Origin: Conidiobolus coronatus NRRL 28638
Lineage: Eukaryota > Entomophthoromycota > Entomophthoromycetes > Entomophthorales > Conidiobolaceae
Direction of reading: 5' to 3'
DNA: 29,141 nt
Assembly: GCA_001566745.1 (NCBI GenBank)
Contig: KQ964439.1
Span: 2,947-32,087, forward strand
The translations under genes and the position numbers were made by a program. Of the stretch, positions 1,573-24,174 are shown in pieces (the stretch's first letter is position 1; each line of letters starts with the position of its first letter). The notes under the pieces are model-generated. The model was not told the origin of the DNA and did not search any database. It saw only the letters and a program-made list of their open reading frames with translations.

Positions 1573-2199
1573 TTAATTAACACTCAAGTTAGAAATAGTA
1601 ATTGGACCTTTGGCCCCATTACCCAATCCACTGCCATTTGGACCAACACCAGTAATAGCAATACCATTAGGTGTAAAGTTATTTACTGTATTATGATGAT
1701 TAATAATCACATTATCCTCTTCTCCATGTAAATGTCTAATTGGCTCTATAGGTAAAATTACATCTTCACCTAGAACATGTCCTCCTCTATTCCTTCTAGC
1801 TGCAAGGTCAAATTCGTCAGCTAGTAAGAGTTCTTCCTCCAATCTAAGTTCAAATTCTTCACTTAAAACTCCTGTGGGCATATCTTCAACAACGACTACT
1901 TCGGGGTGACGGTCTTCAACTATAACCCTTTCAGGAACTTCATCAACTTTGCGAATTGTTTCTGTATCGGTTTCAGTAATAGTAATGTGCTCGTTGGTAT
2001 TTTGACGTCTTGTTAACGCACTTCTGTCATTAAGGCCAGGCCATCCGGTTCCAAAGCGATGAGCGCTATCTAAATTGGCAAACCTACCGAATGCTTCATT
2101 TACTCCGACTCTGTTGTTTCCAGCATCCATAATAGGAATGTTGCTAGCGAGGATTGAAGCTACAAAGGTGTAGATTAGAGCTAATTGGGTTGAAGTCAT
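1573..2199 (-). CDS. Secreted Kex2-type precursor, gene A (core cassette lost)
   Basis: 208 residues, no introns, start ATG at 2199. It has a signal peptide (about residues 1-19, MTSTQLALIYTFVASILAS) followed by the mature N-terminus NIPIMDAGNNRVGVNEAF, shared with gene B. A dibasic site LTRRQ lies at residues 62-66 and a second (ARRN) at 134-137. Between the WPG motif (residues 53-55) and the first RR only eight residues remain, so the roughly 50-residue cassette found in genes B, C and D is missing here. After RR comes an acidic region (EHITITETDTETI, then Val/Glu-rich repeats) and the family C-terminus NNFTPNGIAITGVGPNGSG ... ISNLSVN with NFT, NGS and NLS glycosylation sequons. There are no cysteines. 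It is the last gene of a five-gene unidirectional array. Function unknown; a secreted wall or peptide precursor is inferred. Confidence 0.85.
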   Translation of the reverse strand: MTSTQLALIYTFVASILASNIPIMDAGNNRVGVNEAFGRFANLDSAHRFGTGWPGLNDRSALTRRQNTNEHITITETDTETIRKVDEVPERVIVEDRHPEVVVVEDMPTGVLSEEFELRLEEELLLADEFDLAARRNRGGHVLGEDVILPIEPIRHLHGEEDNVIINHHNTVNNFTPNGIAITGVGPNGSGLGNGAKGPITISNLSVN

Positions 2200-2274
2200 T
2201 GTACTTAATAGATTAATTAGACAGTTTAATTTATAATTTAAAGTGTAAAATGACTTATAATAGTGAATTTAAGT

Positions 2275-2334
2275 GGTTTTTATATTGAATTTAAGTAATT
2301 ATTTGTAACAAAATTAACTGTATATCAATCAATT
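2275..2334 (-). promoter_or_regulatory. Shared promoter module of gene A (TATA plus upstream element)
   Basis: On the minus strand a TATA-like TATAAAAACC (2275-2284) lies 76 nt before the start codon. An upstream element AATTGATTGATA (2323-2334) lies 38 nt further out. The same pair, with 35-38 nt spacing, precedes genes B and C. The upstream element is flanked by TTGTAACAAA (2303-2312), also present before gene B. Confidence 0.6.
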
Positions 2335-2659
2335 GTTCCTTATAAAATTTGAATTACTTAATTGGAAAATTTGTGTATGAAGATCAAAATTCCATAAAGT
2401 TCTAAGATATTTAATAATTATACGATATGATCGAATTATAACACTTAAGGCTTATTTGAATAAATAATATTCAATATCAGAATATTAGTATGAATTTTAT
2501 CAATTTTATAATAGAAGCTGTTTAATATAATTCATGAACATAAATATCAATAATTTTTTTTAAATTTTTGAATAAAAATTTATTGAGTTAACTAAATCAT
2601 TTTACTTATAAAGCTCTATATTAATTATCAATTATTTAAACAGGTATAAAAGCTATTAT

Positions 2660-2676
2660 TTATTTATTTTAAAATA
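2660..2676 (-). terminator. Conserved 3' element / poly(A) signal of gene B
   Basis: Same 17-mer as behind genes A and C, starting 32 nt after the stop codon of gene B. On the minus strand it contains AATAAA. Confidence 0.5.
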
Positions 2677-2708
2677 TTTTAGTAAAAAATAAGAAAAAGG
2701 TAAATTAA

Positions 2709-3329
2709 TTAATTAACACTCAAGTTAGTAATAGTAATAGGGCCAGCTGCTTCACCACCCAAACCACTACCATCTGGACCAACACCAGTAATAGCAATAC
2801 CGTTAGGAACAAAATTATTAACAGTATTTACATGATTAGCAAAGAAATTATCCTCATCATCAAGGAAACCTCCAAATTTATGTCTAGGTAAAGCCACATC
2901 CTCTACTAATACTTCCTCTGCTAATACTCCTTGGGGGGCAGCAACCCTAGCGTTTTCTCTAATAGTTTCAGTTTCAGTTTCGGTAAATCTAATATGTTCG
3001 TTTTGACGTCTTGCTAGACTACTACCACCACTGGTAACACCGCCGGCAGTGTTAATGGATTCACCGTTACGACCAAAGTTACCGTTGAAATGAGGATTAT
3101 TGACCACATGTTGGGTTAATGTTATAACAGGATTATTTTGGGAAATTCCGCTGTCACGACGGACGAAGGGACCTGCGGCAGCACCGGGCCATCTGGCTCC
3201 AAAGCTACCAAATCTGTCGAATGCTTCGTTTACTTGAACTCTGTTATTTCCAACATCCATAATAGGAATGTTACTAGCGAGGATTGAAGCTACAAAAGAG
3301 CAGATTAAAGTTAATTGAGCTGAAGTCAT
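2709..3329 (-). CDS. Secreted Kex2-type precursor, gene B (one core cassette)
   Basis: 206 residues, no introns, start ATG at 3329. Layout: signal peptide (about 1-19); N-terminal segment IPIMDVGNNRVQVNEAF; dibasic site FVRRD (RR at 57-58); a 48-residue cassette (59-106) starting DSGISQNNPVITLTQ and ending AGGVTSGGSSLA; a second dibasic site LARRQ (RR at 107-108); an acidic stretch (FTETETETI); then the family C-terminus NNFVPNGIAITGVGPDGSG ... TNLSVN. Kex2-like proteases cut after RR, so the cassette would be released as a linear peptide; the Gln after the second site could cyclise. The mature part has no cysteine. It is about 60% identical to gene A outside the cassette by eye. No known family recognised. 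Confidence 0.87.
   Translation of the reverse strand: MTSAQLTLICSFVASILASNIPIMDVGNNRVQVNEAFDRFGSFGARWPGAAAGPFVRRDSGISQNNPVITLTQHVVNNPHFNGNFGRNGESINTAGGVTSGGSSLARRQNEHIRFTETETETIRENARVAAPQGVLAEEVLVEDVALPRHKFGGFLDDEDNFFANHVNTVNNFVPNGIAITGVGPDGSGLGGEAAGPITITNLSVN
3006..3155 (-). repeat. Core cassette of gene B (48 residues plus RR)
   Basis: This encodes residues 59-108. Key positions: D-S-G-I-S-Q-N-N-P at the start, N-G-x-F/L-G-x-N-G-E-S-I-N-x-A-G-G-V in the second half, then L-A-R-R. It is homologous to both cassettes in gene C and the one in gene D. Confidence 0.8.
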
Positions 3330-3404
3330 TTTGATATTAATTAGTTATTTGATATAGTTTATAATTAAAATCTAAATAAATACTCGATATTACTGCCAAA
3401 ATTT

Positions 3405-3462
3405 GAGTTTTTATAATGTAGGGTACTTTACTTGTAACAAATTAATTGAATATCAATCAATT
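3405..3462 (-). promoter_or_regulatory. Shared promoter module of gene B
   Basis: On the minus strand TATAAAAACTC (3405-3415) lies 76 nt before the start codon and AATTGATTGATA (3451-3462) lies 35 nt further out. Spacing and sequence match the modules of genes A and C. TTGTAACAAA (3432-3441) sits between them as at gene A. Confidence 0.6.
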
Positions 3463-3964
3463 AATTTTATAGTTGGCAAAACTGTAGATCGTTTTAGTAT
3501 TTAAAATTCAATTGTATTCAGTTATTAAATAGTTAAGTAATAAATGAACAAGATTAACTATAACTTTACCGTTAAGTACAAAAATAGAGCTGTAGTTTTA
3601 CTAACTAAAATTATTTGGGAATATAATTCATAAAAACTCTATTTTTTTGATAAATTTAAATTTTAATATGAAGTTTTAACAATTATATTAATATAATTGA
3701 ATTATAGTATTTACATTTTAAAATGAATAAAAACTATATAATATTATAATATTAATATTGAATTCTATCAATTTAAGCAAATAATGGTGATTACTTAATA
3801 TATTTCATAATATATAAATTTATAATATTTTAGTTTAACTTAGTCAAAGTATTTTTTTAAAATAAAATAATATTAAATTATCTGAAATCTTGAATATATA
3901 AAATTATTTATAACAATATTATTAATTTATCAACATTATATAATTATATTTAAAAGTGAATTAA

Positions 3965-3981
3965 TTATTTATTTTAAAATA
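3965..3981 (-). terminator. Conserved 3' element / poly(A) signal of gene C
   Basis: Third copy of the 17-mer, starting 38 nt after the stop codon of gene C. AATAAA is present on the minus strand. Confidence 0.5.
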
Positions 3982-4019
3982 GTTTAGTTAATAAAGGGTG
4001 GTAGAGAGCCATATAGTGA

Positions 4020-5042
4020 TTAATTAACAACATTGTTAGTTATTCTAACGGAATCTATAGCATCATGACCTACAAAACCATGACCTAAAGCACCACGGCT
4101 TATACCACTACCATTTGGACCAACTCCAGTAATAGCAATACCATTAGGTGTAAAGTTATTTACCGCGTTAATATTATTAGTAAAGAAATTCTCCTCTTGA
4201 TTAGGAATGTGCTCAACAGGTAATCCAAACTCTTCGCCTAAAACGTGACCTCCTCTATGTCTTCTAGCTTCAGCATCGAATTCTTCATCCAACAATGCAC
4301 TATGAGCTAATTCTTCAGCAAGTAGGTGGTCATCTAACCTTTCAAGTTCAAATTCTTCAGATAAAACTCCAGTACGTCTAGGTTCAACAAGTTCTTCAGC
4401 TATTAATGGACGATGAACATGCTCTTCAACTAATACTGGACGGTGAACATGCTCTTCAACTAAAACCCTCTCAGGAACTTCTTCAACTTTGTGAATTGTT
4501 TCGGTATCGGTTTCGGTGACAGTGATATGCTCGGTTTGACGTCTTGCCAAAGTTTTACCAGAACCAGCGACACCACCTGCTTCGTTAATAGATTGACCAT
4601 TCTGTCCCAAAGCTCCATTAATAAATGGATGGTTTAAAAATTGCTGAGTAGTATCTACAACGGGGTTATTTTGACTAATACCACTGCCTCCTTGACGTCT
4701 AGCCAATGTGCTACCACTGCTGCCAACACCTCCAGCTTTGTTGATGGATTCACCGTTACGTCCAAGATCACCGTTGAACTGAGGAGTACTGGAAACTTTT
4801 TGGGCGAGTGTTAAGAGGGGATTATTTTGGGAAATACCACTGTCACGGCGGGCGAAGGGACCTGCAGCACCAACACCAGCACCTCTAGCAGCACCAACGC
4901 CGGGCCAGTTAGCTGCAAAGCTGTTAAGATCGTTAAAGCTCTCCATGTTACCGAAGTTAAATCCTTCGAAAGTAGGGATGCTATTAGCTAAAATAGAAGC
5001 TACAAAAGTGCAGATAAGAGCCAATTGAGTTGATGAAGTCAT
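4020..5042 (-). CDS. Secreted Kex2-type precursor, gene C (two core cassettes)
   Basis: 340 residues, no introns, start ATG at 5042; the longest member. Signal peptide about 1-20 (TQLALICTFVASILA). Dibasic sites: FARRD (RR 65-66), LARRQ (115-116), LARRQ (167-168), PRRT (222-223) and ARRH (260-261). Cassette 1 is residues 67-114 (48 aa, DSGISQNNPLLTLAQ ...) and cassette 2 is 117-166 (50 aa, QGGSGISQNNPVVDTTQ ...). They are followed by the acidic region with two perfect ten-residue repeats VLVEEHVHRP (193-212, the first residue of the second pair differing only in context), then a Glu/Leu-rich part and the C-terminus NNFTPNGIAITGVGPNGSG. The last 30 residues (HGFVGHDAIDSVRITNNVVN) differ from A and B. 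The two cassettes show that the unit can multiply inside one precursor, the hallmark of Kex2-processed repeat proteins. Function unknown. Confidence 0.88.
   Translation of the reverse strand: MTSSTQLALICTFVASILANSIPTFEGFNFGNMESFNDLNSFAANWPGVGAARGAGVGAAGPFARRDSGISQNNPLLTLAQKVSSTPQFNGDLGRNGESINKAGGVGSSGSTLARRQGGSGISQNNPVVDTTQQFLNHPFINGALGQNGQSINEAGGVAGSGKTLARRQTEHITVTETDTETIHKVEEVPERVLVEEHVHRPVLVEEHVHRPLIAEELVEPRRTGVLSEEFELERLDDHLLAEELAHSALLDEEFDAEARRHRGGHVLGEEFGLPVEHIPNQEENFFTNNINAVNNFTPNGIAITGVGPNGSGISRGALGHGFVGHDAIDSVRITNNVVN
4411..4470 (-). repeat. 30-bp tandem repeat coding VLVEEHVHRP twice
   Basis: Two adjacent 30-bp units, 4411-4440 and 4441-4470. They share the first 22 bases with one mismatch and code the same acidic/His motif. 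This is an in-frame minisatellite in the linker of gene C. Confidence 0.75.
4539..4844 (-). repeat. Two tandem core cassettes of gene C
   Basis: Unit 1 is 4695-4844 (150 bp, residues 67-116) and unit 2 is 4539-4694 (156 bp, residues 117-168). Both carry G-I-S-Q-N-N-P, N-G-x-L-G-x-N-G-[EQ]-S-I-N-x-A-G-G-V and T-L-A-R-R. Unit 2 has two extra residues after RR. Confidence 0.85.
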
Positions 5043-5553
5043 TTTTGTTTGTTGATAAGTTAATTAATTTAATTAATTAGTTGTTAAGTTTATAATTTAG
5101 AGTCTAAATTGATATCTTATAATAGTGAATTGATAGTGGTTTTTATAAGGTGTACATTTTTACTTGATACAATGAAATTGTATATCAATCAATTATTCCT
5201 CAAAGAATTCGAATTTTATAAAAAATTTGATAATTTGGTAACTTGTGTGATAATCGAGTGACAAGTTTTAATTACCGGAAGTTTTTTCCTATACAATGGT
5301 TATCAATCATTATTTACTAACGTTTTAATTTGAATTTTGTCGTATAGTAATTTTTTATACTAGCTAATATTATTATTTGATAGATTAATTTAATTATAGG
5401 TTTAGTTTAGTGTGTATGTTATTCAAAAATTAAAGGTGTATGTTAATTTGGTTAATTAAATTGATTAGACAAGATATACTATTGCTCTATATAATTATTT
5501 ATTAATTTTTAAAGCCTTTTCTAGATAGAGGGTAATTGGCTAACTGGGGTATA
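5043..5553. other. Intergenic region between genes D and C
   Basis: This holds the promoter module of gene C (5138-5194) and a second, weaker upstream element TATCAATCAT at 5301-5310. No gene is seen. Confidence 0.55.
5138..5194 (-). promoter_or_regulatory. Shared promoter module of gene C
   Basis: TATAAAAACC on the minus strand (5138-5147) lies 96 nt before the start and AATTGATTGATA (5183-5194) is 35 nt further out. The block between start codon and TATA (TTCACTATTATAAG) is nearly the same as in gene A. Confidence 0.6.
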
Positions 5554-6174
5554 TTAAGCACTAGGTGGATTAGTGACAGGCGCGCTATTTTCTCCTGATT
5601 CTGATATTTCATGGCCTAAAACAAATTGCTCTAGAATATTATCTCTTTTCTCTGTGTCTTTAGCATCATCAATTAACAAATGAGGTTTGTGTTCCTTAAT
5701 GTGTCGCTCCCTAATTTCTTTCTCCATTTTCTCCGCAATTCTCAAAGCCTTCTCCCTAGCTTCTATAAACTGTGGGGTCTCTTTCCCTGTCATAGTTTCC
5801 TTAATATCTTCAGTGAAAACTTCTCCATTGGGGCCTGTTTCAGTGAATTTCTTCTCAGCTGTTTGTCTCCTACTCAATCTAGCGTTAACACCATTTTGAA
5901 CTCCGCCTGCATTGTTCATTCCACCTGTAACAGCTCCTAAGCCGCCATTAATAAAGGGATGGTTGTTAACCTTAAAATTTTGGGTGATAACAGGGTTATT
6001 TTGGTTAATGTCATCTCTTCGAACAATAAAGGTAGGGTTACCGCCCCAACCCCAGCCGAGTCCATTGTTTTGTACGTTTACATCGTTGTTACCAACCTTC
6101 ATAATTGGCATTTCATTGGCGAGGGCTAGAGTTAATAAATTGATTAAGATTACGTTTAATTTTGTAGAAATCAT
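5554..6174 (-). CDS. Secreted Kex2-type precursor, gene D (cassette kept, different C-terminus)
   Basis: 206 residues, no introns, start ATG at 6174. Signal peptide about 1-19 (NVILINLLTLALA), then EMPIMKVGNNDVNVQNN, matching the N-terminal motif of A and B. A Trp/Gly-rich piece (LGWGWGG) precedes IVRRD (RR 52-53). The cassette, residues 54-101 (48 aa), starts DDINQNNPVITQNFKVNNHP and contains FINGGLG and NNAGGV before LSRRQ (RR 102-103). After that the protein departs from A-C: TETGPNGEVFTEDIKETMTG, then a charged, probably helical stretch (residues 135-165) and TEKRDN (KR 176-177). The conserved C-terminal motif of A-C is absent. No cysteines. So the cassette and signal are kept while the carrier differs, which marks the cassette as the part under selection. 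No known family recognised. Confidence 0.85.
   Translation of the reverse strand: MISTKLNVILINLLTLALANEMPIMKVGNNDVNVQNNGLGWGWGGNPTFIVRRDDINQNNPVITQNFKVNNHPFINGGLGAVTGGMNNAGGVQNGVNARLSRRQTAEKKFTETGPNGEVFTEDIKETMTGKETPQFIEAREKALRIAEKMEKEIRERHIKEHKPHLLIDDAKDTEKRDNILEQFVLGHEISESGENSAPVTNPPSA
5866..6015 (-). repeat. Core cassette of gene D (48 residues plus RR)
   Basis: This encodes residues 54-103. It shares I-[SN]-Q-N-N-P-V-I-T, H-P-F-I-N-G-x-L-G and N-x-A-G-G-V with the cassettes of B and C and has the same 48-residue length. Confidence 0.75.
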
Positions 6175-6478
6175 TATTGATGTATATTGAGCAGTCTAAT
6201 GTATAGCTTAATATGATATTCATGAATACCAACTAGTATTTATAATGATTTGGATAATTATATTTGAAACTTGAATTATCTAGAGCTTATGAATATTTTA
6301 CAAAATTTACACTTTAAAACTTGCAACAAATTTCGAAAAACGTTCATAATAACTTCAGTGTAATAAAAGCACTTAAACAGTAATTAATCATTCAATAGTA
6401 AAAAATCTCAAGTTTTAAACATACCAAGCTTCATAAAACATATTATAATTATATAAATATAGGTTTATTTAATTAGAT
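6175..6478. other. Intergenic region between genes E and D
   Basis: A TATA-like TATAAATAC on the minus strand (6236-6244) lies 62 nt before the start codon of gene D. The AATTGATTGATA element of genes A-C is not present here. Confidence 0.45.
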
Positions 6479-6952
6479 TTAAATATCTTCCGCATCAATA
6501 AAAACTTTTCCATCACTAAAAGATTCGGTTTCTTCAGCATTCATATTTACACTAACACTACCGGGAGTACTCCACCAATCAAACTCATTAATTGCATTGG
6601 TTACAGCGTCTCTGCTCATCTTTTCAATCTCTTTGGGACCTACCATTCCCTGATCATTTTCAATTTTAGCTAGAGAATCAGCAATTGCGTTTGCTTTTTG
6701 CGCTTCTGCCAAGAAATTGGGTACCTCTAATGAGCTAGGGGCTTTTGCAGGGGTTGCTGGAGTTGCTGGAGCATTTACGTGGGAATTTGTAGCAGGGTGT
6801 GGTGTGATAGCTGAACTTACGCTGAATTGGCCATCTTTCATTGCATTTACAGCTTTTATCCTATTTGTGCGATCAAAAACTGGTAATTGTCTTCGTATAA
6901 CCATTGATTGAATACTGACTACTAATAATAAAGTACAAGTAATTAATTTCAT
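6479..6952 (-). CDS. Small secreted protein with early dibasic site, gene E
   Basis: 157 residues, no introns, start ATG at 6952. Signal peptide about 1-16 (KLITCTLLLVVSIQS), then the short propeptide MVIRR (RR at 20-21), then QLPVFDRTNRIKAVNAM. This start resembles the N-termini of A, B and D (PxxD..N...VN.A pattern), so E may be a remote relative. The middle is an Ala/Pro/Thr-rich linker (about 52-72, ATPATPAKAP), followed by a helical region (about 76-122) and an acidic tail containing DWW. The only cysteine lies in the signal peptide. A TATA-like TATAAAAGAC lies at 7021-7030 on the minus strand, 69 nt upstream. No known family recognised. It heads the five-gene array. Confidence 0.75.
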   Translation of the reverse strand: MKLITCTLLLVVSIQSMVIRRQLPVFDRTNRIKAVNAMKDGQFSVSSAITPHPATNSHVNAPATPATPAKAPSSLEVPNFLAEAQKANAIADSLAKIENDQGMVGPKEIEKMSRDAVTNAINEFDWWSTPGSVSVNMNAEETESFSDGKVFIDAEDI

Positions 6953-9759: not shown

Positions 9760-10119
9760 TCGCGCCCCATTCTTCATTTGTAACAATAGATTATTTTATA
9801 TATAGTATATCTTAAACTTGTCAATTTTTATCAGATTTTACTAAATAAAACAGAAAAAATTAAATATAAAAGCCAACTGTAATTGGAGTTAACTTAATTT
9901 GGAATGACTTAATTGCAGAATTTAAGTCATATGGTGATAATTAATAAATTAATTATAATAAGAGAGAGGTTAAATTTATTTTGGAGTAATTATACTATAT
10001 TTGACTAGGTTGAATAGCTAATTGTTTTCATTCTTAGCCAGAATTTTAACTTATCTAGCTAAATTATAATCACATAACATGTGTTTTATTTTATTGAATT
10101 ATTTTCTTATTTTTATTAG

Positions 10120-10214
10120 TTACAACTGTGTTCAAGTCTATGAAATCAAAACTGCTACGAAATATCCCTCACCCACAGATAAACTATTATGATTGGTCAA
10201 TACCTGTAGTTTAG
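10120..10214 (+). pseudogene. Possible orphan exon or gene remnant
   Basis: After a plausible acceptor (TTTTTATTAG, ending at 10119) a frame runs for 30 codons to a TAG: TTVFKSMKSKLLRNIPHPQ ... DWSIPVV. It is locally richer in G+C than its surroundings. No upstream exon could be joined, so this may be a decayed gene fragment or chance. Confidence 0.25.
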
Positions 10215-10330
10215 CCATTACATCATTTTATAAAACAATTGCAATGTAATAATGACTCAAATATTTAAAGAGAAATAGAATAGTTAAAGAGATACTTTAT
10301 CATATTAAAGTATATAAAAACTTTTATTTA

Positions 10331-10674
10331 AATTGAGGAAAATTTAAAGTGTAATTATTATGAAAAGATATCTAGGGTCATCAAATTTATATGCAAGATC
10401 CAGTAAAACTGACAAAAAATTTTAATAATATTATGTAACGCAATAAATTTTTAATTACTATTTGTCTACTTAACGCGTCAATTATCTCATAAGTATCTGA
10501 TTTTTATGAACTTATGTCGGGCCTAACGGACAAGAATTAAAAACTTTCTGCGTTACATAATAGTTATAAGCACTAATATCTTGCTTACATCAAATTAATA
10601 TTCAGAATTAAGCTCATACAAACTTGAGATAAGTTAACTTGAATTATTCATATCATAGTATTTAACTATATTAG
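10331..10674 (+). repeat. Dispersed repeat, copy 4, interrupted by a foldback element
   Basis: The left part (TTGAGGAAAATTT ... AAAACTGACAAAAAATTTTAATA) and the right part (GTTATAAGCACTAATATCTTGC ... AAGCTCATACAAACTTG ... AAGTTAACTTGAATTATTCATAT) align in order with copy 2 (28605-28897, opposite strand). The match breaks exactly where the 132-bp inverted-repeat element sits. Confidence 0.65.
10430..10561. mobile_element. 132-bp foldback (MITE-like) element
   Basis: The 27-bp arms 10430-10456 and 10535-10561 are inverted repeats with 24 of 27 matches; the outer 13 bases (ATTATGTAACGCA and its complement) match but for one inner position. CATAAGT/ACTTATG in the interior extends the hairpin. 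It has no coding capacity. It lies inside copy 4 of the dispersed repeat, whose copy 2 represents the empty site. A MITE is the natural reading; target-site duplication is not clear. Confidence 0.65.
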
Positions 10675-13600
10675 CTAATAGTTTAGACTTTAAATAATAA
10701 TTAATAGCAAAACTTTTAACTAATAGCAATAAATTCATAAAATACAAAGTATAAATTGTTGTACAATTCAAATTATATCACTGTTTGAGCGTTGAAAGCC
10801 ATAAAAGTGCAAAATAATAAGAATTTGACATTTAAACTTAGATCGAAATAGTATTATTTATTAGGGTATAAATATTTATAATCTGAATAATATTTTGTAA
10901 TTTTAAAAACCACTAATATATATTAATTTTAACTATATGCAACTTTAATGATTTTCATGTTATTTAATATTCAATTAAACTGATTGAATGCTAGTATTTT
11001 TAATAAAAATAATTTATATTAATATTTGAATTTTTATTAATATTTTATTTTCAAATATTTCTTTGAAAGTAGAAATATGAGAAATATATTTAATAATAAA
11101 CTAATAAATTGAAATATTATTAAATCTTTAAATTTTTAATATATACTTTAAATATTGGAGATATGGGAGTTTAAATAATATATATCATTCATTTTATTAG
11201 CAAGCTATTTAAATTGATATTATAAACTTTATAAACATTTAAAAACTGCTGCTATAATATCATATTTCGACAATTCTCTATCAAATGTTTAAAATGTAAC
11301 ATAATGGCATATATTTTCGAATAATAGCTTTTAAAATTACATAATGAAATATTTTATAATAAAACAGAATTTAATTGTATGAAATATAAAAACAAATATT
11401 GATTTTTCTTGAGTTTATGAATGTATTTGCTAATGTTTAACTATTTCATAAAAACTTTATCAAGAATGCTCTTTATATTCATTATGTTTCAAATATCTAT
11501 TAATTATGGTTTTACATTATTACATTTATTAGCTTGGAGTATGTATAAACCTCTTATTCATGATTAAATAATACCATAAATACAAATTATTTTATCTGAA
11601 TTATTAAACTAATCGCCTTAATAACTAACTGTAACTACCATAAAGTTTAATTTCTTATTGTTAATCCTTAATCATTGCACTTTTGAACAAATAGTATATA
11701 AAAAGGTTTCAATATACAGAGTTAATGAGAAGACCTACTAGGCACCTATCTGTTACCGCAATGATAATCATGCTCTTCCAATTGTTTATTTAATTAATGC
11801 TATAACTATCATTTCTTAACTCCTGCCAAAGTTAAAGTTAAAGTAAGTTATTATTCATTTACGATAGCTTTGACTCTGATTAGCTAGTTTTTATTACCTC
11901 GACTACAATATATTTTATCCAAGTTTGAATATTTGGCTGTGAGAACAATAGCAATAAGTTATGATTTAAGGGTTAAGCTATTTATAATAGTAACCAATTT
12001 ATAACAGTCATCCAATAAATTGATATAAATGATGTGTATTAAGTAGTCTAGTAGAATTTAAACTTTTTAATAATAAACAATAAATTCAATATAAAAACTA
12101 TGATTTAATTAAATATTATACTTATATAAATTTTCAATTTATTATATTATTACAGCTATGTTTATTAGCTGAGAAATAATTGGCTATTTTATAGAATAAA
12201 GAGGTTTATTATTACTAATAAATATAATTAAATTATTTATATAGATTATCCTACTATAAAAGTACTATCTTATACGATTGTGACGTGTATAGCTATAATA
12301 TATATAATTCATACTGAAAATATATATTACAAAATACCAAGTTAATTAATTAATAAAACAAAGAATAGATATATAAATATATTTGCCTTTATAGAAACTA
12401 TAAATAGTAGCGTCTAGAAGATCTATGAATTTTTTAAAATAATTTATATCTTGTTTAAACGCCCATTGACTCAAAGCTTTTCACTATATATTATATTGTA
12501 ATATTAAGACCATATTATAATTTATGCTAATAAAGATGACTATAAGTATGATAAGATTATAATAAAAATTTTATCAGATAATCTTAAAGCATATCAATTA
12601 AACTAGTAACTATAAAGTTTATAAGCAGTTATGTTAATGGCGATAAGCATTATATGTATCTTAACAAGATTATTTTTCTCAGTTTATAATTGTCATTGAT
12701 AAATTAGATTCACGTTACTAACTCTTATATTTCAAATAAACATGTAATAAGCTTGATCAAAGAACAAAATTTTTTTTGAAATTTTACAAATCTTAATAGG
12801 TAGCGAATTTTTATGAATATTACTAGTTATACTCTATTAAACACACTTACTAAGTTTGGTAATCTCTAGTTATCTAATGCTTTTCTCTGTGTAATTTTTT
12901 GCGTAAGCTAGCGCAGCTTAAAATAGCTATTCTTTATATTTGAAAATCATATGATTTCTACATCTTGAGCAGTAATATTTTATTAATAGATAAAAACTTT
13001 TCTTATCTAAACTTCGCGTTACAATCATACACTATCCATTTTATACTATTTTGAATATAAAAAATGATCTTTTCTTAAATAACAGTATTATAATATAAGG
13101 GACCTATCAAACTTAATTCAAATTGACAGCTATATTTTATATAGCATGTCTAGCTCCTAAATTTTATATTGTTTGTAATATGCGAGTTTTTGGTTAAATA
13201 GAATTATGTCCCACATATAGTTTGAATACAAATTGCCACTCTAAGGTTCCATCCGATTCTATTTTATGCAGTGTAAGCAGAAATCAAGAATAAATATTCT
13301 ATTCGGTTTCTTCTATAAAAGAATATATTGAGAAATCGATAATGATGATATCTTGTTTAGAACCTACATACTTCAATAATACCACCGCTTTAGCTTGTAA
13401 AAAAACATCCGATTGAAAACAGCGTTTTATAAAAAAAATTTTGAGTAACAACATTCAACTAATAAGCTTAAACTCACATCGCCAATTTACATTTGCAAAA
13501 CGCTTTGTACTGTTTTTTCAAATTCTCAACTAATACTTAGTAACGCTAATTTCCTTTTATATTCAATTTATTATAATATATGCAAAAATGCTTTTATATA

Positions 13601-14527
13601 GAAATAAAAGATTAATATTCTATAATACAAAAATAGATCTAGGTATTATTAAATAATTCTTCACAAATCAACAATAAACCTCGATATATAATGTTTACTT
13701 TGAATTAATCTAAGCCGCAGCTGCGTATAGCATATTTTTTCAATTGATTAAGTTCCTTTTCAACAGAATAATACAAATTTTGAGTGCATATTGCACGGGT
13801 ATATCTGGTAATCCATTATTAATTTTTTTCACTTTATCTGATTATAATCCACTAAATTATTTTTTTTATACTAAACACAGCAAGTAGTGATAAATTTCCT
13901 TAATTGTATAAATACAAATGATATCTTATCTTTAAACCACTTATATTTAAACGTTATTGTTGTTTGTTATTTTCTATTGTTTACATTATCAAAAAACTCT
14001 TTTTATTATAAGATTTTTAGATTAAACGTGGAACATATAGAATATTTTAATTTTGATTATTCACTTTACAATGATAAGGTAAAGTGAACACTTGAAAGTG
14101 AATGTTTTGATTGAGGATACGAGTGTATGTAATAAAACTTGAATTTTCCCATTGATGCCAGGTAGCGATGATGCCATAATCGCTATTATAAGTTTTGATA
14201 TTATAGCTAGATATTTTTTAAATTATATAGAACCAATATAATAATGTCATTACTGGGTATACTCAGTTATATGTTAAAAGCTAATAGATTAACTATTTGA
14301 AAATTACGGATTTTAGTAAGTATATTACTATAAAAGGGAATATTTTATTTGCTGCATATAAATTGCATATTTTAAAATTATTACTTTTAAAATATAAAAA
14401 TGTTAATGTAGTGTATTGTATTTTCATTTATTCATAGAGTTGATAAAGTAAAAATAGATTGGTTTGCTAAAATAGCAATTATTTCATACCTTTAATATAA
14501 ATAAGCATGCAAATGTTTCAAATATCA

Positions 14528-14653
14528 NNNNNNNNNNNNNNNNNNNNNNNNNNNNNNNNNNNNNNNNNNNNNNNNNNNNNNNNNNNNNNNNNNNNNNNNN
14601 NNNNNNNNNNNNNNNNNNNNNNNNNNNNNNNNNNNNNNNNNNNNNNNNNNNNN
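14528..14653. other. Assembly gap (126 N)
   Basis: A run of 126 N inside the gene desert. The true length and content are unknown, and a repeat too long for short reads is a likely cause. Confidence 0.99.
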
Positions 14654-16595
14654 AATCTATTCACATAAAACTTTTAAAATTTTCAAATATTCTATATTGT
14701 CTATTAAATGAAAGTCGCTTTAATTAATAGATAAAAATATATCTGGGCAATAATGACTCATCAACAGATCTCCATTATTATCAAACTTAAAAGAAACATT
14801 GGATATTGGACTAAATTAGGCAGTTTATACTTATCCCTAGTTAACCATTCGCTAGTAATTCACGTTTATATGACTAACGGTAAAATGTATATTACTATTA
14901 ATAATAGGGCCATTAGTAATACCGTGACAAATTAGCCTATATTGGATGGCTGGTTATATTTGAATATTACTGTATATACTGTTTAATTATACTAAATAAA
15001 TTAACTCGCTATTCAGCGCCAAATTCTGTGATATTTTAAGAAAATAAAGCCAATAAAAATGACTTTTAGCATACTCCGTCTATTTTTACACAAATATAAT
15101 TAAACTAACTATAAATGCCAAATTAAAGTCAAATTGTATTAGTAATCAACTTCTAACATTTAACTATCAGTCAATCTTAATTTAGATAATAATAATAATT
15201 ATTGTTATATTTTCCTTATTTACGCTAGCCAAATGTAATATAAATAATAATTATGATTAAAATTTACTGTTTTAACAGAAGAATAGACTGATTTTGTTTT
15301 GCTTACTAATGAAAAAGTGAATGATTCACCCGTTTAGTACATCTTTATTATTAAAGCATCTTTACGTCAGCTTTAATTGCTTTAAAATTTCTTGAAAATG
15401 ACTCAATTATGAATCTATAACAAGCTAAACATCAATATAAAACGCTTAATTATTAAAAATGCTAATGAAATATAATTAATTACACGTCATCTTTATATAT
15501 AAACATAGTCGGACTACTTGGACCGACAGAGCTATTTAAATTAATAATTGTAATATATAGCTTGGTATATCGATTGATTGGTTCAAATAAATTGGTAAAA
15601 TTTACAACCGGAATAATTTTATCTAATTTCTTATTGTGGGTAAATTATGTAATTTTAATTTGTCCATTTTTTAGTATTTCAGGATCTAATGTTTTAATGA
15701 ATCGAGATTCCGTAAAAATCATTTTAAAAATAGTAGATGCTTACACGTTTCTTTGCCTCCTCTAAATATTTCTAGCTCCTTTATATATAAGATTGATTAT
15801 TAATGATTTATAATCCTGCATTAGGTGCTGACAGCGTCGGATAGAAAACATTTTTCGTATCAAATAAGCTGAGCAATATTAAAAATGATTTCATTGATGT
15901 TGATAAAAACATTGGAATTTTATATTGATGGTGATAATAATACCAGTTAATAATAAATAAGGTAATTTTATCAAAAGTTGAACTCTTGTTAAATTAAAAT
16001 TGATAAAGTAGAATGCTCACGCTATCACTTTTTATAATTGTTATTTTGCATGGTCACTCACTATGAAGTCAAGCTGTTCAAGTGATTTTAGTGTACAGTA
16101 TGATAAAAATCATATGCACTTTTGGTTTGATAACAATTAGTTTGATTCAATGAATTGATTTCAGTCAACAATTTACACTTGACAACTAGTCATCATAAAT
16201 TAAGTAATTGTTAGAGCTTAAAGAGTTTTAAAACTGACGAATATTGAATTGTGGCCAAATTCACACCCTTTAATTAGTTTTATGCATTTGTTGACAAAAA
16301 GGAATTTAGGACATTGATAAATTGGAGTAATTTAATTGGCTGAAAGGGGAGCTTATGAATTTAAGGACATTAAAAAGTTAATTGTTGATTACTAATAGAT
16401 CCCTCAGAGTGAAATAATAATTTCCCAATTAATACCTATGAAAATCTCATGAATCAAATTTATAAGGGAATTTAAAAAACAATATAAGGACATCTGACTC
16501 CAACAATTTTATTTGGTTAATGCATAAAATCCTCATATATTAGGATCTATCTTTTATCTCTTTTCTTTTCTTAACTTATTTGACTTCCCCTCGTC

Positions 16596-18954: not shown

Positions 18955-19614
18955 ATGAGCTCAATTAAACAATATTTAAATAGTAAAAATTTGAAAAAAT
19001 TGAATCATATTATACTAAAATGTAGTCATCCCGATTACTTTAAATTAATCAATAATAGTAACCTTAACCTAAATAGTATTCAATCTAAAAATCATGAGTT
19101 TTTAGTTAAATGGAATTGCTTTACTCAAGAATTTGATTTATTAAACCAATTATTATCATCAACGAATAGATGCAAAGACGATAAACCTTCAAAGTTTGAA
19201 CTGATTAAACTATACTCTGAGACCAATGTTATTGACTTTGATTTTTACCTAAAATCAAACACTATAGTAAATAGCGATGTTAACATCATCGAAACTAGTA
19301 TTGAATTAAAATTAAACAATGAGCTTAAAAAAGTTTATACATATTTAAATAGAGATCAAAAAATCAATGCATTGCAGTTGAATTATTTAAAATTGATTGG
19401 CGATCACTTGGTAGAGTTAAATATTCAAGAAGCTTCTCCAATATCAAATGAAATCAATAAGCAGTACGAATCAAATATTGAAAACTCTTTAAAGTTAAAG
19501 AATAGGACTCCTAATAATGGTCGTCAAAATAATATTAGGCAACAATATTTAAAAGGATTAAAATCACATTTATTAAGCAATAAAAATAATAATATAAGCG
19601 GGATTAAATCTTAA
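18955..19614 (+). CDS. Orphan Asn/Lys-rich protein of unknown function
   Basis: 219 residues, one exon, ATG at 18955. I do not recognise the family. The protein is rich in Asn, Lys, Leu, Ser and Ile and looks mainly helical and soluble, with no signal peptide or membrane segment. The middle (about 118-155, LNNELKKVYTYLNRDQKINALQ ... YLKLIGDHLVELNI) has the hydrophobic spacing of a helical bundle or coiled coil. The C-terminal 45 residues are basic and low-complexity (RTPNNGRQNNIRQQYLKGLK ... NKNNN) and could bind nucleic acid. It converges on SPT16, with only 40 bp between the two stop codons, so the transcripts almost surely overlap. The length, the ATG and the regular codon use support a real gene. 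Confidence 0.7.
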   Translation: MSSIKQYLNSKNLKKLNHIILKCSHPDYFKLINNSNLNLNSIQSKNHEFLVKWNCFTQEFDLLNQLLSSTNRCKDDKPSKFELIKLYSETNVIDFDFYLKSNTIVNSDVNIIETSIELKLNNELKKVYTYLNRDQKINALQLNYLKLIGDHLVELNIQEASPISNEINKQYESNIENSLKLKNRTPNNGRQNNIRQQYLKGLKSHLLSNKNNNISGIKS

Positions 19615-19654: not shown

Positions 19655-23127
<3,473 letters not shown>

Positions 23128-24174
23128 TATATTTTTTAACTAAGAAAGAGAGAAAGCAATATCAATAAAAATAATCAAACTTATTAAATGTTAAGGTTAT
23201 TACTCTTTTATATTATTTTTTTATACAAGGGGAATGACGCAAATTAATAATCAAATTAAATTAATGCTTATATTGGCGAATTGTAGACTAAAAATTATGG
23301 GAATTGTATATCCAAATTTACTATATTATAAAATTTGTTTTACAAGCTACTCTTACATTAGATATGCTAATACTATATTATTAGCAAATTTCAAAAATAA
23401 TTTTTCACTATAAGCTTAAATTTGCTAATCAATAAATCTTATTAAATGATTTATTAAAATCTAATTTTTATAGAAATTTTAATTATCCTAAAAAATTTAA
23501 ATTATTTTTATTTAAATACTAAAATTTTATATTGTTGACTAAATACTTAATATTGCTCTAACTATACACATTTTGCAAGGAACGAGATTATAAGCTACTA
23601 TATATTGAGAATTAGCTAAGAAAATGTATATAATTAATATAATAAATGATTTTAATATTTTTTATTTGATATACTGCAAGATTAATTCATCTTTAATAAG
23701 TTAAAAATCTTGTAACATAGCTGAATAGCGAGTATAAAGCACTATAATTGAATAGAAAAAAATACAAAAGTATTAATTTTGCTATTATATAGATCATTTA
23801 CCTTTTAAAAGGCATCTATTGTTACATAAATCTTTACCCTCTTAAATTTAAATAATAATAAGTTTACTAATTAAAAGATATACAAGAAATATTATATTAA
23901 ACTATTTTCTTTTTAATAGCTCTGTTTAGATCTTCAATATATATTTATTTTTTGAGATAATTCAAATATAAATTTAAACATTACTTTATTATAACACGAT
24001 AGTATACCTGGCTGCAATTTATGATTGTGTACTAATTATATATAGTAGATTTTTATATTTAGTAGCTTTAGTGTGTATAAACTAATGCTCTAACAATAGT
24101 TTTTAAATCCTGTTAATTAGTATAGCTAATTAAAATATTAATTCAGCATTCAATATTTCCATTACATAAACATA
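23128..24174. other. 1-kb AT-rich intergenic region
   Basis: This lies between the start of SPT16 (-) and the 3' end of the coiled-coil gene (-). It should contain the SPT16 promoter. A weak inverted repeat (TGTAACATAG at 23711-23720 against CTATTGTTACA at 23817-23827) resembles the ends of the foldback element at 10430-10561 in sequence and spacing, but the match is short. No gene is seen. Confidence 0.5.

Follow-up and report, generated by a model that had tools for sequence, protein, structure and literature searches.

Predicted secreted precursors with a shared peptide cassette in a four-gene cluster of Conidiobolus coronatus

Introduction

Secreted precursors of the Kex type are common in fungi, and the functions of their products are largely unknown (PMC9769878). 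The Kex2-processed repeat proteins (KEPs) are defined by a signal peptide, the absence of a membrane span, a yield of four or more fragments on cleavage at Lys-Arg (KR) or Arg-Arg (RR) pairs, and at least three similar repeats between the cleavage sites, and in Dikarya repeats of 9-24 residues are the commonest class (PMC6339444). Many KEP types are lineage-specific and a few are common to different phyla; 2,560 of 7,878 Kex-type precursors have no homologue (PMC7329392). Two described proteins with a layout of Kex2 sites and a longer terminal fragment are Rep1 of Ustilago, with ten repeats, and Ece1 of Candida, with seven (PMC2515848). Ascomycete alpha-pheromone precursors are likewise secreted and carry dibasic sites, together with an STE13 signature and a short repeated peptide. 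Here we compare with these systems a locus of Conidiobolus coronatus NRRL 28638 on contig KQ964439.1 (positions 2,947 to 32,087, a stretch of 29,141 nucleotides that is called the window below and to which all coordinates refer). Its four adjacent genes A, B, C and D resemble KEP genes in encoding a leader and, in B, C and D, a cassette between RR sites, which is longer than the commonest class of repeats.

We consider it likely that the products of A-D are precursors that are cut to release the cassette peptide. The four would be a small family of secreted prepro-proteins encoded in tandem. After loss of the signal peptide, a Golgi kexin would cut behind RR, and the arginines left at the ends would be trimmed by a Kex1-like carboxypeptidase. 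Set free in this way would be a hydrophilic, cysteine-free peptide of 48-50 residues, of which B and D would each supply one and C two that differ, and alongside it a conserved Asn/Gly-rich C-terminal fragment from A, B, and C. Gln is the first residue of the second cassette of C and of the fragments past the last cassettes, and fragments starting in this way may turn pyroglutamyl; pyroglutamyl peptides from such precursors have been found in a mushroom (PMC9769878). The cassette peptide would be the working product.

Results and Discussion

Each of the genes A-D is a single open frame on the minus strand, complete with ATG and stop codon, and the four are arranged head-to-tail, with lengths of 206-340 codons. 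The product of gene A (1573..2199, 208 aa) has a signal-like leader and lacks a cassette; its RR pairs are at residues 64 and 135. Gene B (2709..3329, 206 aa) has one cassette, gene C (4020..5042, 340 aa) has two cassettes and five RR sites, and in gene D (5554..6174, 206 aa) the only cassette is divergent and the C-terminal part does not resemble those of A-C. In the alignment, A, B, and C agree in the leader and in an N-terminal segment, share an acidic middle, and finish with a C-terminal end rich in Asn and Gly. This conserved end lies past the last RR in A (residues 137-208, 1576..1791) and in C (residues 262-340, 4023..4259), and past the RRQ site in B (residues 109-206, 2712..3005), in all cases on the minus strand. 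D shares with A-C the leader region, the cassette, and the RRQ junction. Judged from these alignments, A, B, C, and D are paralogues of one another. All four proteins contain a hydrophobic 9-mer near the N-terminus with a mean hydropathy of 2.3-2.7, and no 19-mer beyond residue 25 exceeds 1.1; the expected signal peptides are thus present as signal-like leaders, a call made from hydropathy only. The acidic middle of C also contains a 30-nt tandem duplication (VEEHVHRP, 4386-4445), and a similar double copy is found in its orthologue, which is introduced below.

The original prediction had described an array of five genes. The product of the fifth, gene E (6479..6952, minus strand, 157 aa), begins with a signal-like leader and contains a single RRQ. 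Neither BLASTP with D nor a comparison with a profile of A-D and their orthologues gave a credible match. Gene E is not counted as a fifth member and is treated as a neighbor without demonstrable kinship, and the family has four members here. A profile comparison also gave no match between the cassette and the C-terminal segment, and the idea that these two are copies of one unit was rejected.

The cassettes are located at residues 59-108 of B (3006..3155), residues 67-116 (4695..4844) and 117-168 (4539..4694) of C, and residues 54-103 of D (5866..6015), all on the minus strand. Each is flanked by RR on either side, contains no Cys, and is rich in Asn and Gly. Copy number and the lack of Cys are as predicted, while the predicted size of 48-50 residues holds without RR and becomes 50-52 residues with it. 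The cassettes are hydrophilic, with mean Kyte-Doolittle values of -0.53 to -0.77. Seven cassettes, from this locus and from the orthologues, have the motifs I-x-Q-N-N-P, P-x-x-N-G-x-x-G, and N-x-A-G-G-V in common and end with L-x-R-R. Within C, the first and the second cassette share 60% identity, and the cassette of D is 42-54% identical to the other eight. The proposed fixed context of the RR sites, hydrophobic-x-RR-[DQ], applies to the sites that bound the cassettes, but not to residue 135 of A (RR-N) and residues 222 (RR-T) and 260 (RR-H) of C.

The cassette motif had been proposed as a possible new family, and the searches agree with this. Pfam and searches of PDB by sequence gave no credible match, only weak rows at chance level (e.g., D to NES_C_h, E 0.13; A1 to Mn superoxide dismutase, E 0.24), and NCBIfam gave no match. 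The strings SGISQNNP, SQNNPV, and ISQNNP matched no paper in a literature text search, and QNNP and AGGV do not occur in the accessible main text of two KEP papers (PMC9769878; PMC7329392). A gene with DUF3328 (UstYa), as expected near precursors of ustiloxin-type ribosomally synthesized and post-translationally modified peptides, was not found in Pfam scans of 14 open reading frames (ORFs) of the window, out of 51 listed stop-to-stop ORFs of at least 60 aa. As far as sequence comparison can tell, A-D are a new family within a known kind of precursor. They are not formal KEPs, because they contain at most two cassettes, compared to the three repeats of the definition (PMC6339444); cutting at KR and RR would yield six fragments from C, four from D, and three each from A and B. 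Surveys based on three repeats should therefore miss all four genes (PMC6339444). The design of a Kex2-processed precursor that had been proposed for the locus is thus retained with respect to the leaders and the conserved dibasic borders, and not with respect to the formal KEP class.

A search with gene C among about 5.8 billion proteins gave six proteins at E up to 10, three from the window and three from a metagenome of the Joint Genome Institute (JGI). In this type of search the candidates share exact five-residue words with the query within a length range, and 8,000 of them are scored, so that other holders may be missed. The JGI proteins belong to a second fungus and are orthologues of A (P0005), B (P0003), and C (P0002); their contigs are all listed at 37,896 bp and are probably one and the same. 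An additional 121-aa fragment on a JGI contig of 1,047 bp (P0008) matches the last 121 residues of D with 79% identity. B and P0003 are 78% identical, compared to at most 66% to the other proteins. The phylogenetic tree pairs A with P0005 (support 96/95) and C with P0002 (100/98) and groups both pairs together (99/99), while the fork at B and P0003 is left open and D forms a long branch. By these relationships the duplications appear to be older than the split of the two fungi. P0005 has no cassette, like its orthologue A, and the loss of the cassette from A would be the simplest history, because A groups with C and is the only one of the four paralogues that lacks a cassette.

The cassettes of the orthologues are 82-92% identical to those of B and C. 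In C the two cassettes, with 90% and 92% identity to their counterparts, are much better conserved than the N-terminal segment (64%) and the C-terminal segment (65%). This bears on the possibility that the released fragments are structural surface peptides, which assemble on the cell wall or on aerial cells after the same cutting step. Such assembly has been described for Rep1 and suggested for CaEce1 (PMC2515848), and a composition rich in Asn and Gly would suit it. However, A-D contain zero to two cassettes, compared to the ten repeats of Rep1 (PMC2515848), from which, as from Ece1, they are set apart by description and not by sequence. In addition, the cassettes are hydrophilic, and fibers like those of Rep1, which had been suggested for them, are not supported. 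Lastly, two cassettes that are only 60% alike, each of which is kept so well in the orthologue, argue for distinct jobs and not for bulk material. We therefore regard a structural role on the surface as unlikely.

Relatives of the cassette were also found outside this group, by profile searches of the kind that had been proposed. A profile of seven full proteins gave nine proteins from 8,000 candidates, namely the four of the window, the four JGI proteins, and one from the mushroom Panaeolus papilionaceus, with an E-value of 1.7e-9 for a profile that was built without it. A cassette-centered profile that included this protein gave five proteins, two of them from Panaeolus, and thereby added a second one. 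Among the matches listed, and outside the orthologues, the cassette is present in these two P. papilionaceus proteins only (BJ165DRAFT_1408129 and BJ165DRAFT_1501280; P0009 and P0010), which are annotated as hypothetical. Candidate relatives on viral contigs (8 and 52 pattern-matched stretches) and in prokaryotic genomes (33 stretches) were rejected, as none was confirmed.

Both Panaeolus proteins have a hydrophobic leader and one cassette, which is 46-58% identical to the cassettes described here (58% between B and P0009). It has an Arg directly before its start and RKR at its end. The similarity to A-D is limited to the cassette and stops near the basic borders, with no convincing likeness beyond; in contrast to A-D, the Panaeolus proteins contain Cys in the C-terminal part. 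Contamination is an unlikely origin, because both proteins are listed with a longest contig of 1,076,257 bp, and the sharing of the cassette is likely to cross phyla. When P0009 was used as a query against the searchable part of the C. coronatus genome, its matches were confined to the locus described here, namely to the four cassettes, and C and D as queries also gave no dispersed copies and matched this locus only. Between C. coronatus and the mushroom, the cassette has thus been kept in proteins that are otherwise different, and therefore the working part is narrowed to a defined peptide, which is open to synthesis and testing.

The cleavage itself has to be weighed against the view that A-D are ordinary secreted proteins, in which the cassette is part of an uncut protein, RR marks linkers, and any cleavage is incidental. 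Several observations count against release of the peptide, and the first three of them also speak for an uncut protein. First, regularly placed RR sites had been predicted, but the number of RR pairs is above that in shuffled sequences in C only (5 versus 1.07 expected, p 0.0018), and not in A (p 0.25), B (p 0.15), and D (p 0.076). Second, the 12 RR/KR sites of A-D were scored with a published Kex2 matrix (PMC2515848, Table 1), and the right-hand cassette borders, with 2.23, score no higher than other sites of the same proteins (2.19-2.39). Third, no kexin was found in the searchable assembly with P_proprotein, Peptidase_S8, yeast Kex2, or motif patterns; the flanks of the window read as N (9,912 of 10,000 bases on one side and 2,946 of 3,100 on the other), as do parts of three other loci, while three more loci are complete, and this negative is uninformative about absence. 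The Peptidase_S8 search led only to three proteinase-K-like subtilase genes, which lie close together (C50:137525-145631). Fourth, the left cassette border in Panaeolus is a single Arg and not dibasic. Fifth, the cassette of B does not stand out in comparison to its orthologue, as its identity of 82% lies between those of the N-terminal segment (87%) and the C-terminal segment (73%). Sixth, the ratio of nonsynonymous to synonymous substitutions (dN/dS) between the cassette of B and the first cassette of C (0.19/0.76) is little below the whole-protein values for A-B (0.23/0.68), A-C (0.29/0.83), and B-C (0.28/0.87); for the other five cassette pairs dS was above 1.6 or not computable. From the segment identities and the dN/dS values it follows, at the level of sequence statistics, that the cassette is under purifying selection and that a special constraint is clear in C only.

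On the other side, all five RR sites that bound the cassettes of B (two) and C (three) are retained in P0003 and P0002. The frequency of RR is weak evidence by itself, because the excess over shuffled sequences is confined to C, and the retention of RR positions in the orthologues is the stronger argument. B, C, D, and both orthologues with a cassette each have their highest site score (2.69-3.09) at the front border of the first cassette. The lowest-scoring of the 12 sites, EPRR at residue 222 of C (1.56), is not retained in the orthologue. That the similarity to the Panaeolus proteins ends near basic borders is also at odds with an uncut protein, and so is the presence of a Kex1-like gene. 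Three stretches on contig C16 match Peptidase_S10, and this match is the sole check that genes split into exons are detectable in the genome searches. The last of these stretches encodes a hydrophobic span and an acidic tail, and its best PDB match is yeast Kex1 (1ac5, E 2.1e-5), followed by plant carboxypeptidase II (E 1.6e-4). By homology, the gene is one for a Kex1-like carboxypeptidase. In sum, we hold it to be rather improbable that A-D stay uncut, and prefer their processing to the cassette peptide, in which cleavage by a Kex2-type enzyme would be the first step after signal-peptide removal.

A further possibility is that this lineage uses the peptide, released by the same cutting step, like a pheromone in mating or as a quorum signal. 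The Kex-type precursor layout would be compatible with it, and so would an upstream element that A, B, and C have in common. This element, the 19-bp sequence AATTGATTGATATNCARTT, is located on the minus strand about 115-134 nt 5' of the start codons of A (2316..2334), B (3444..3462), and C (5176..5194), but not of D, and is followed by a TATAAAAA at a distance of 31 nt in A and 28 nt in B and C. With up to two mismatches it occurs three times in the window, compared to a mean of 0.08 in shuffled sequences, and with up to one mismatch three times in the searchable genome, in all cases at A, B, and C, while a reversed control gave no occurrence. This would reflect constraint only in part, because upstream sequence is inherited in common when genes are duplicated. 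The TGATTGAT inside the element we take, provisionally, to be homeodomain-like. The likeness to ascomycete alpha-pheromone precursors, which the original prediction had proposed, does not extend further. The STE13 XA/XP signature is present behind none of the 12 RR/KR sites of A-D, and the cassette with its 48-50 residues is far longer than the 9-24 residues of alpha pheromones (PMC6339444). Moreover, the other holder of the cassette is a basidiomycete, and mating pheromones of basidiomycetes are of the a type only (PMC6339444). A pheromone-like peptide thus seems very improbable.

For the released cassette peptide, our first guess is that it might act outside the cell on other cells, of its own kind or of competitors, and would not be a coat protein. 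This guess, which we put forward tentatively, is based on two facts: both variants in C are hydrophilic and individually conserved, and a distant fungus has the cassette by itself behind a leader. A wider version is more speculative still and, in our opinion, doubtful: the cassette could be a new secreted fungal peptide acting on other cells, which has been conserved or horizontally passed among distant fungi, and which one lineage has multiplied into a cluster, with three genes under their own cis element and the variants released together.

Genomic Surroundings of the Cluster

The assembly comprises 17.5 Mb in 186 contigs, and the GC content of the window is low, varying between 0.20 and 0.42 per kb. 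Contig C22 measures 199,977 bases in this assembly, and the protein database gives 224,007 for the contig of the window's proteins. Genes for Spt16, a cation-efflux (zinc-type) transporter, and a bZIP protein are located further along the window, which is therefore regarded as fungal. A gene-poor region of about 6 kb (10001-16000) has a GC content of 20-25% and includes 126 N. An ORF of 219 aa without a Pfam match is present at 18955-19614. An ORF at 508-849 encodes the C-terminal domain of ribosomal protein L9 and is probably an exon of a gene for a mitochondrial ribosomal protein. The Spt16 gene (20200-23140, minus strand) contains several short introns, about 40-60 nt long by eye, with CTAAC-like branch sites and TAG ends; the best matches of one of its exons are chains from Komagataella and S. 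pombe.

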